DNA from: an uncultured SAR86 cluster bacterium
GTDB taxonomy: Bacteria; Pseudomonadota; Gammaproteobacteria; Magnimaribacterales; D2472
Length of the DNA: 56,587 nt
Assembly: GCA_902560315.1 (NCBI GenBank)
Contig: CACELG010000006.1
Span: forward strand, 1-56,587
Reading direction: 5' to 3'
A model generated the notes under the pieces. The model was not told the DNA's origin and searched no databases. It saw only the letters and a list, made by a program, of their open reading frames with translations. Both the position numbers and the translations under genes were made by a program. Each line of letters opens with the position of its first letter. Position 1 is the first letter of the stretch. Shown here piece by piece: positions 44,914 through 47,631 of the stretch.

Positions 44914-45468
44914 AGTTACGCCTGTTTGTCCTTGATATTTACCCCCACGATCCTTATAGCTTATTTCACATTCTTCGTCAGATTCAAAGAAAAGCATTTG
45001 CGCGACACCCTCGCCAGCGTATATTTTAGCTGGTAAATTTGTTGTATTTGAGAATTCTAGAGTTACATGACCCTCCCACTCTGGTTCAAGAGGTGTTACG
45101 TTCACAATAATGCCACACCTAGCATAAGTTGATTTACCTAAACATACAGTAAGAACATTTCTTGGAATTTTGAAATATTCAACCGTTCTGGCTAATGCAA
45201 AAGAATTTGGAGGGATTACGCATATATCAGAATCGATATCTACAAAACTTTTTTCATCAAAAGATTTAGGATCAACTACAGCTGAATGTATATTAGTGAA
45301 AACCTTAAACTCATTTGAACACCTTACGTCATATCCATAACTAGAAACACCATATGAAATTAATTTATTTCCATCATCATCAAGTCTTACTTGATTTTTA
45401 GAAAAAGGTTTTATCATGCCGTTTTTCTCAGACATTTCTTGTATCCATTTATCAGACTTAATCGACAT
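44899..45468 (-). CDS. dcd: dCTP deaminase
   Basis: Dcd deaminates dCTP to dUTP, the main route to thymidylate in Gram-negative bacteria. The 189 residues contain SYGYDVRC, the substrate loop [20 protein letters not shown] with the catalytic Glu, [13 protein letters not shown], and the C-terminal lid [18 protein letters not shown]. It overlaps recR by 11 bp, at the end of a minus-strand DNA metabolism run. Confidence 0.97.
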
Positions 45469-46054
45469 TAATTTCTACACGTCCTTCTATTGCACGAGCA
45501 ATAGTTGTTCCATCAACATACTCTAACTCTCCTCCAATTGGAATTCCATAAGAAATTCTTGAAACCATAGCATTTTTTACATGATCTTTAATAAATATTG
45601 CTGTTGCATCGCCTTCTACAGTGCTGCTAGTCGCCAATATAACTTCTTTAATATCTTCACTATCAATAATTTTTAATAGGTCATCAATTCCTAAATCTTC
45701 TGGCCCAATATTATCGATTGGTGAAAGCCTACCAAGTAAAACAAAATATTTACCTCGAAAGCCACCCGTTGATTCGATCGCAAGGACATCTGAGGGACTT
45801 TCAACTACACATATACTTTTCGAATCTCTTGAAGTATCAGAACAAATATCGCATATAGGTTTTGACGTTAACATTCTACATCTTGAACATCTTTGAATAT
45901 TTTCAACAGCTTGATTAAGAGTATTAGCTAAGATGCTTGCTCCATCTTTATTTCTATCTAATAGATAAAGTGCCATTCTTTGAGCTGATTTTTTACCCAC
46001 ACCTGGAAGAATAGTTAAAGCATTTATAAGTTCTGTTACTAAATCTTGGTTCAT
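45458..46054 (-). CDS. recR: Recombination mediator protein RecR
   Basis: RecR works with RecO (and RecF) to load RecA at single-strand gaps. The 198 residues have a helix-hairpin-helix ([17 protein letters not shown]), a Cys4 zinc finger (Cys56, Cys59, Cys68, Cys71), a Toprim domain ([14 protein letters not shown]) and a Walker-like C-terminal region with [14 protein letters not shown]. It overlaps dnaX by 4 bp; the ybaB gene that usually sits between dnaX and recR is absent here. Confidence 0.97.
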
Positions 46055-47631
46055 TTTATTGGTTTAATAGTATCAGCTTTTATTTTTCCATTAAATTTAT
46101 TAATGAAATTCTGAATTTCTTTATCTTCATTAATATCAGTTTCAGCAAATCCTTTTTCGATATTTTTATTATTTTGCTCCTCTTCAATTGGTGAATTTAT
46201 AACATCGCCAACTTCAATTTTTATACTTATACTCTCAGAGAATTTATCCTGTAAAATTGTTTTAAATTCTGAAATTATATTTTCAGGTACCTCATTCATT
46301 TCAGAGCTTGAACAAAGTATTAGCGAATTATCTCTATAGGAGTTCAGCGACATATTCCCAAAGTAATTTCTTGCAAAAGGACTCATCTCAAGTGAATTAA
46401 ATAAAGCTACCCATTCGTCATTATTATTTATTGAGAAACTTTTATTATTATCTTTAATGTCAGATTTTTGTACATCTAATTTGTTATTATCAACTTTTTT
46501 TAGAGTTTTTTTTTCTGAATTGTTTGTTTCATTTGAATTGCTGTCATTTGATAGCTTTTGAAGTGGATTAAAAGTTAACATTCTTAATAAGCATATTTCT
46601 AAGGCCTCTTTAGGACTAGGATGAACAGAGAATTTTGAAAAAGAATTCATAGCAATTTCATAAAGCAATTGATTAAATTCATTATCAATAAGGCTTGCTA
46701 AATGTTTTATTCTTTCGTCTTGTGAGTTATTTAAAACCTGCTCTAAAGAAATTTGATGAAGGATAGAAATAATATCTTTTAAAATAGAATCATATTCTGG
46801 AGATAATTCTTCTATTTTTGATAATAAGTCAAAGACAGATACTCCATCTCCATCAATTACAGAATTAATTAATCCTATTAATAATGAATCATCGATAGTT
46901 CCTAGTAATGCCTTAACTTGATCTTGTAACAGTTTTCCATTTCCATGTGCTATAGCCTGATCGAGTAAAGTTAGTCCATCTCTTACTGAGCCATTTGCTG
47001 AATTTGCAATCAAGGCAAGACTTTCATCGTCCGACTGAATTTTTTCATGTTTAAGTATTTTTTTAAAATGATTAAATAGTAATTCCTCATTAACTGTCTT
47101 TAAATTAAGTTGTAAGCATCTAGATTGGACGGTTTTTGGAATTTTCTCAGGATTAGTTGTTGCAAATATAAATACAACATGTGCGGGAGGCTCCTCAAGT
47201 GTTTTAAGAAGCGCATTAAAGCTTGCAGCCGAAAGCATATGAACTTCATCAATTAGATAAATTTTAAATCTTCCTTTAGCAGGTTTATATTCTACGGTTT
47301 CAATTAAATCTCTAATTTTATCAACTTGTGTATTTGAAGCTGCATCGATTTCTAAAAAATCTACACTTCTACCAGCTGAGATTTCCATAGTATTTGAGCA
47401 CTTATTACATGGGTTTGAAGTTGGTTTAGAGTCGCTATCGCAATTCAAACATTTTGCTAAAATTCTAGCGATCGTGGTTTTTCCTACTCCTCTTGTGCCC
47501 GAGAAAATATATGCTTGGTGAATTTTTTCTTGATCAATGCTATTTACCAAAGCTTTAACAACATGGTCCTGCCCAACAACTTCATCAAAATTAGTTGGTC
47601 TATATTTTCTTGCTAAAACCTCATAAGACAT
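46051..47631 (-). CDS. dnaX: DNA polymerase III subunits gamma/tau
   Basis: DnaX is the clamp-loader ATPase; the long tau form also links polymerases and helicase. The 526 residues include Walker A GTRGVGKT (45-52), zinc cysteines Cys61, Cys64, Cys75 and Cys78, Walker B IYLIDEVHMLS, sensor/arginine-finger block SRCLQLNL region and domain III to about residue 360. A linker rich in Ser, Asn and Lys follows, then the C-terminal tau-specific part. At codons 373-380 two A-runs form slippery sites (separate entry) that would produce a gamma form of about 380 residues. It overlaps recR by 4 bp and starts 9 bp after recX. Confidence 0.97.
   Translation of the reverse strand: MSYEVLARKYRPTNFDEVVGQDHVVKALVNSIDQEKIHQAYIFSGTRGVGKTTIARILAKCLNCDSDSKPTSNPCNKCSNTMEISAGRSVDFLEIDAASNTQVDKIRDLIETVEYKPAKGRFKIYLIDEVHMLSAASFNALLKTLEEPPAHVVFIFATTNPEKIPKTVQSRCLQLNLKTVNEELLFNHFKKILKHEKIQSDDESLALIANSANGSVRDGLTLLDQAIAHGNGKLLQDQVKALLGTIDDSLLIGLINSVIDGDGVSVFDLLSKIEELSPEYDSILKDIISILHQISLEQVLNNSQDERIKHLASLIDNEFNQLLYEIAMNSFSKFSVHPSPKEALEICLLRMLTFNPLQKLSNDSNSNETNNSEKKTLKKVDNNKLDVQKSDIKDNNKSFSINNNDEWVALFNSLEMSPFARNYFGNMSLNSYRDNSLILCSSSEMNEVPENIISEFKTILQDKFSESISIKIEVGDVINSPIEEEQNNKNIEKGFAETDINEDKEIQNFINKFNGKIKADTIKPIK
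46490..46515 (-). promoter_or_regulatory. Predicted dnaX frameshift/slippage site (gamma form)
   Basis: On the minus strand the codons GAA AAA AAA ACT CTA AAA AAA GTT contain an A9 run (46514-46506) and an A7 run (46501-46495). A -1 shift at either run reaches TGA at 46492-46490 within five codons; loss of one A from the A9 run reaches TAA even earlier. All yield proteins of about 376-380 residues that end just after domain III, as E. coli gamma (ribosomal -1 shift) and Thermus gamma (A9 transcriptional slippage) do. No downstream stem-loop was obvious. Confidence 0.6.

Follow-up and report, generated by a model that had tools for sequence, protein, structure and literature searches.

Two routes from dnaX to the truncated gamma protein are well documented, a ribosomal one in Escherichia coli and a transcriptional one in Thermus, and the textbook case in Gammaproteobacteria is ribosomal. 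We asked which route, if either, is used by the dnaX gene of an uncultured SAR86 cluster bacterium, located in a 56,587-nucleotide stretch of contig CACELG010000006.1 (assembly GCA_902560315.1; hereafter the window). A sequence-only reading had pointed to two closely spaced runs of A's in this gene, one of nine bases and one of seven, and proposed that the lineage combines both types of site at one place. A literature search returned no paper mentioning SAR86 together with dnaX. The relevant features are:

46051..47631, minus strand: dnaX (DNA polymerase III subunit tau/gamma), one open reading frame of 526 aa encoding tau, assigned by Pfam and TIGR02397
46561..47631, minus strand: domains I-III, common to tau and the predicted gamma (codons 1-357; Pfam matches 20-357; folded confidently in the structure model)
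46438..46557, minus strand: disordered, hypervariable linker with the A-run (codons 359-398; pLDDT < 50 and alignment)
46066..46425, minus strand: C-terminal domain V (alpha-binding), in tau only (codons 403-522; DNA_pol3_tau_5; folded in the model)
46506..46514, minus strand: A9 run, putative slippery element (codons 373-376, GAA AAA AAA ACT), judged by conservation and third-base changes
46495..46501, minus strand: A7 run, lineage-specific, with synonymous breaks in L007, L008, L009 and L011
46500..46502, minus strand: TAA closing the +1 frame (one A lost or two gained), from frame reading and frame-closure counts
46490..46492, minus strand: TGA closing the -1 frame (one A gained or a -1 ribosomal shift), the predicted end of a 380-aa gamma, from frame reading and frame-closure counts

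The gene assignment was supported by domain content. Pfam models DNA_pol3_delta2, DNAX_ATPase_lid, DNA_pol3_gamma3 and DNA_pol3_tau_5 matched the protein, the last on codons 403-522 with 31.3 bits against a cut-off of 28.8. The DnaX (tau/gamma) family is recognized by its N-terminal model and domain III, and both were found in the window protein (TIGR02397 dnaX_nterm, 425.7 bits, cut-off 250; PF12169, 46.5 bits, cut-off 24.4). The closest matches of the gene were SAR86 single-cell and MAG contigs. Full-length tau, read in the zero frame, has 526 aa and a mass of 59.1 kDa, and residues 359-398 are the sole disordered segment (pLDDT < 50) of its predicted structure. With a linker of only ~40 residues (46438..46557, minus strand) separating domain III from domain V, SAR86 DnaX seems to have no counterpart, or only a very short one, of the DnaB-binding domain IV known from E. 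coli tau. Downstream, recR (45458..46054, minus strand) has a start codon that overlaps the stop of dnaX as ATGA, and in most relatives the two are no more than about 10 nt apart; because ribosomes terminating at gamma would not reach recR, its translational coupling may depend on the translation of tau.

On the minus strand the zero frame at the site reads TCA GAA AAA AAA ACT CTA AAA AAA GTT GAT, with 4 bases separating the A9 run (46514..46506) from the A7 run (46501..46495). In the -1 frame the A9 run is followed by NSKKS and then TGA (46492..46490), one codon past the A7 run, while loss of one A leads to L and then TAA (46502..46500). The predicted product is 380 aa long (ending SEKKNSKKS, 42.3 kDa) with one A gained or after a -1 ribosomal shift, and 376 aa long (ending SEKKL, 41.9 kDa) with one A lost. 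The sequence-only reading had described two in-frame runs at 46490-46515, an early stop in each shifted frame, a short form of about 380 residues and 42 kDa, and a position just past domain III. All of this agrees with our own reading of the frames, which puts the A9 run where domain III meets the linker.

The search for dnaX covered 34 genomes at the level of the genus, 107 at that of the family and 203 at that of the order; the conservation set comprised 132 distinct intact genes from four families and 21 sampled genera, the zero-frame tau being intact in all. A run of A9 to A11 was present within codons 345-382 in 131 of the 132 genes, in 20 of the 21 genera and in all four families, with A9 in 36 genes, A10 in 93 and A11 in 2, lengths that may be miscounted in MAG assemblies. 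The linker around the run is hypervariable in the SAR86 alignment, and the run itself was lost once on the protein tree. Along that tree, residues at the 5' edge of the run were replaced about 21 times and those at the 3' edge 22 times, and the run changed phase on 16 occasions and length on 11. That the run outlives changes of edge, phase and length points to selection on run length rather than on codon phase or peptide. The one gene of the order set without an A-run (L198/L327, genome G162) had no A_AAA_AAR site closed within 10 codons; this genome may have lost gamma or may make it another way.

The expectation that the A9 run is kept against synonymous change was borne out by this near-universal presence and by the third bases, which are frozen. 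On the tree, third-base changes numbered 0 at Lys column 382 and 1 at Lys column 381, compared to 16, 19, 20 and 22 at four other near-invariant Lys columns, and Glu column 380 had 0 compared to 9-30 at other Glu columns. Codons can be frozen by other constraints too, as K9 near the start codon shows (3 third-base changes). Lys codons wholly inside the runs were AAA in 292 of 292 cases, with AAG at 23% elsewhere. Since A's were used to locate the run, this count is partly circular; the alignment-column test is independent of this. With proteins fixed and synonymous codons drawn at random, one gene per genus, a run of at least nine A's was expected in 9.7 of the 21 genera and seen in 20 (P = 2e-7). 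The A9 run, at the boundary between domain III and the linker, is thus under strong selection.

A separate constraint was observed two codons 3' of the run, at alignment column 385 in the motif T-Y-Y-W-AAA: of the 77 genes with Lys there, nearly all use AAA, with a single change on the tree. The stops draw on the first bases of this codon and not on the third, and so do not account for its third-base constraint.

These results bear on the possibility that the run is unprogrammed, a product of AT bias and a conserved Lys-rich linker peptide (EKKN), with slippage as mere noise. The genomes are AT-rich and the linker is Lys-rich, and for the window gene alone, given its protein, a run of at least nine A's is expected with a probability of ~0.6. 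However, third positions are frozen at the run and not elsewhere, residues beside it vary freely without loss of the A's, the per-genus P value is very small, the rest of these genomes avoids long A-runs (see below), and AT-rich members of the class outside the order (L324, GC 0.30; L331, GC 0.33) are without the run. An unprogrammed origin is strongly disfavoured, and we give it very little probability.

Both shifted frames are closed soon after the run, in keeping with what had been proposed for this gene, and the early stops are conserved. A -1 stop lay within 8 codons of the run in 131 of 131 genes (82% in shuffles) and a +1 stop in 95% of genes (52% in shuffles), all-gene counts that are inflated by common descent. 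The fair figures are those per genus: with one gene per genus, the mean distance to a stop was 3.0 codons in the +1 frame compared to 10.8 in shuffles (P < 0.001), and 3.05 codons in the -1 frame compared to 5.1 (P = 0.02). Counted in this way, closure is strong in the +1 frame and modest in the -1 frame. Losing one A or gaining two leads into the +1 frame, whereas a -1 ribosomal shift does not; that this frame is closed therefore points towards transcription.

The main rival to transcriptional slippage is programmed -1 ribosomal frameshifting at an A_AAA_AAA heptamer in the run, which would make gamma without extra stimulators. Every A9 run, whatever its phase, holds such a heptamer in frame, and the -1 stop within 8 codons in all 131 genes would also fit a ribosomal shift. 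Only tRNA-Lys UUU was found among 26 tRNA places of the incomplete window genome, and a single tRNA-Lys UUU is said to favour ribosomal shifting (PMC5009743). In addition, A_AAA_AAG with a stop after it is the site in some relatives that lie outside SAR86. However, the heptamer needs seven bases in one phase, yet SAR86 runs are never shorter than 9 and their phase drifts. SAR86 does not generally use A_AAA_AAG, which is reported to be far more prone to shifting in E. coli (PMC5009743): A_AAA_AAG with a -1 stop does not occur in the window, where the heptamer is A_AAA_AAA, and only genes of genus g3 end in AAG, their CAA AAA AAA AAG containing A_AAA_AAG. Closure of the +1 frame would be useless to a -1 ribosomal shift.

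Signals that assist ribosomal frameshifting were also looked for. No downstream stem-loop was detected, the mean minimum free energy over 50 nt being -3.3 kcal/mol in SAR86, -5.1 in control windows and -19.1 in E. coli; hairpins were compared by absolute energy and not by z-score, since the E. coli hairpin, being GC-rich, has an unremarkable z-score of 0.17 against shuffles. No internal Shine-Dalgarno sequence was found ~10 nt upstream (+0.4 kcal/mol in the window compared to -7.4 in E. coli), and across SAR86 the mean energy was -2.45 compared to -1.88 in controls. Rfam RF00382 had no match in the window or in 14 SAR86 loci, with the E. coli dnaX control at 96.8 bits. A7 runs, moreover, are not avoided in the genome, which also speaks against ribosomal shifting as the source of gamma. 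Taking both sides together, we consider this route unlikely.

The frequencies of A-runs were compared with expectations obtained by shuffling synonymous codons within each gene, using 369 sampled ORFs of the window genome (G000). There were 284 A7 runs compared to 248 expected, 17 A9 runs (in 16 of the 369 ORFs) compared to 31.4, and 0 runs of at least ten A's compared to 11.7. Runs of at least ten were likewise scarce in the ORFs of G112 (0 compared to 6.8) and G082 (2 compared to 14.7, one of the two being dnaX). Avoidance in ORFs concerns runs of at least ten A's and not A7 or A8; in the window genome A7 is ordinary and A9 lies at the border of avoidance. The A9 and A7 pair within one genome is therefore weak evidence, and it is the order-wide conservation of A9 that counts. 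Transcript insertions have been found to rise exponentially with the length of A/T runs (PMC5574713). Runs of at least ten A's are scarce between genes too (2 seen compared to 6.9 expected in four genomes), so their avoidance may partly reflect replication slippage.

Run length in dnaX might also be tuned by lineage, such that the gene keeps about the shortest run on which its RNA polymerase slips and its length tracks the avoidance threshold of the genome, A9 in family f3 and A10 in family f2. In the f2 genome G112, A9 runs numbered 17 compared to 16.6 expected, with A10 in those f2 dnaX genes that were read; sampled ORFs of the f3 genome G176 had 0 A9 runs compared to 4.2 expected, and A9 is the run in most f3 dnaX genes. 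Exact A10 runs number 0-14 per genome on both strands, a count that includes the dnaX run in several of the genomes listed. If the tuning is real, dnaX would be one of few permitted slippery genes; the f2/f3 comparison rests on small numbers, and we regard tuning as a lead of rather low probability.

The second run behaved differently from the first. The A7 of the window, CTA AAA AAA GTT, occurs only in a small subclade (L002, L003, L010 and L013) of the group encoding LKKV, whereas neighbours L007, L008 and L011 have CTC and L009 has CTG, which leaves A6 with LKKV kept; the -1 TGA stays across the group although the A7 is broken. A second run of at least seven A's within 22 nt of the site was found in 17 of 131 genes (13%), compared to 3% in the C-terminal part of genes, and such runs go with Lys-rich linkers. 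We do not accept the A7 as another programmed site. Synonymous breakage with the peptide intact is the very pattern that had been named in advance as refuting the proposal, and the idea of two site types at one place falls with it: the A7 is neither conserved in the order nor avoided in the genome, and the hallmarks of the E. coli site are absent. The evidence favours one slippage site rather than a mixture, with a ribosomal contribution at the A9 itself being possible.

In two genomes the length of the run disagrees with the reading frame. L113 (G004) has A8, one A short, and L164 (G040) has A11 where its relatives have A10; each dnaX is broken exactly there, with both halves otherwise intact. 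These changes may be assembly errors, natural variants or alleles rescued by slippage. They would also suit a contingency locus, in which replication slippage toggles dnaX between tau and gamma-only alleles. However, the frame at the run is kept in nearly all other assemblies, the broken genes of G077 and G073 are disrupted elsewhere too, tau is expected to be essential, and homopolymer errors of assembly would look identical to contingency alleles. Of the explanations considered we find this one the least probable.

The most probable explanation, at roughly 0.68, is that the A9 run serves for programmed transcriptional slippage, as in Thermus thermophilus dnaX, and has been passed down throughout the order. 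Transcription is favoured because length is selected beyond the heptamer, phase drifts, both frames are closed, only long A-runs are avoided and stimulators were not found. Whichever route is used, selection very likely maintains the site for the sake of a truncated product. RNA polymerase copying A9 to A11 would add A's in vivo and less often lose them. Messages with the templated number of A's, or 3n more, would yield full-length tau, and all others would meet a stop within a few codons in either shifted frame and yield gamma, consisting of domains I-III and a short tail ending in the linker, without the alpha-binding domain V. From known DnaX biology, this gamma would be a clamp-loader subunit unable to hold the polymerase through domain V; we infer that it is made and stable, in some ratio to tau. 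Slippage and ribosomal shifting could also act together.

Slippage of the Thermus type is further marked by mRNA that is heterogeneous in its number of A's and by gamma and tau made at about 1:1. SAR86 is abundant in the surface ocean, and existing metatranscriptomes could reveal slippage by their A counts. If the explanation is correct, the transcriptional route arose within Gammaproteobacteria and has been stable over long evolutionary time. The conservation also argues strongly, on comparative grounds, that even a streamlined genome gains from retaining a gamma form. For annotators and assemblers it carries a caution, that the A-run of SAR86 dnaX should not be "corrected".

Outside SAR86 the site is rare. 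No run of at least nine A's after dnaX codon 345 was found in 23 genomes of the class outside the order (one per family), and only 4 of 72 further gammaproteobacterial loci had one (L042, L063, L069 and L104); the trait is therefore not general in Gammaproteobacteria. L063 (JAQWPL010000001.1) has A_AAA_AAG with an immediate -1 TGA at codons 382-391 and an A10 six codons on, which makes it a real double-site candidate. A second dnaX, L114 (G007:C1; 42% identical), carries an A12 run at codon 356, followed one codon on by a -1 stop, and probably comes from a contaminant contig.

Several known systems resemble the SAR86 site. The E. coli dnaX frameshift (-1 ribosomal, RF00382) occurs in the same gene at roughly the same place, gives a gamma of domains I-III with a short tail, and shares the single tRNA-Lys UUU; unlike E. 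coli, SAR86 mostly lacks A_AAA_AAG, shows no internal Shine-Dalgarno sequence, hairpin or RF00382 match, and has the +1 frame closed too. A GeneTack cluster of two-ORF dnaX genes with A10, attributed to programmed transcriptional realignment, likewise has poly-A at the tau/gamma boundary, but those genes need the shift for tau, whereas in SAR86 tau is in frame and the shift would give gamma (PMC3711429). Blochmannia, also AT-rich gammaproteobacteria with poly-A in dnaX, has frameshifted poly-A tracts for which slippage has been invoked and more than 100 coding tracts of at least nine A's; its dnaX indel lies downstream of the gamma site, in contrast to the conserved in-frame site of SAR86, whose genomes avoid runs of at least ten A's (PMC3017870). 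The favoured reading is modelled on Thermus thermophilus dnaX, where, in the accounts of Larsen et al. (2000) given in PMC1088944 and PMC5009743, transcription slips on an A9 run with stops in both frames. As in that system, SAR86 has a sense-strand run of at least nine A's after the clamp-loader domains, tau in one ORF, near stops in both shifted frames and a predicted gamma without the C-terminal part; unlike it, the run varies from 9 to 11, the phylum is unrelated and the genome AT-rich, and slippage is predicted from sequence.
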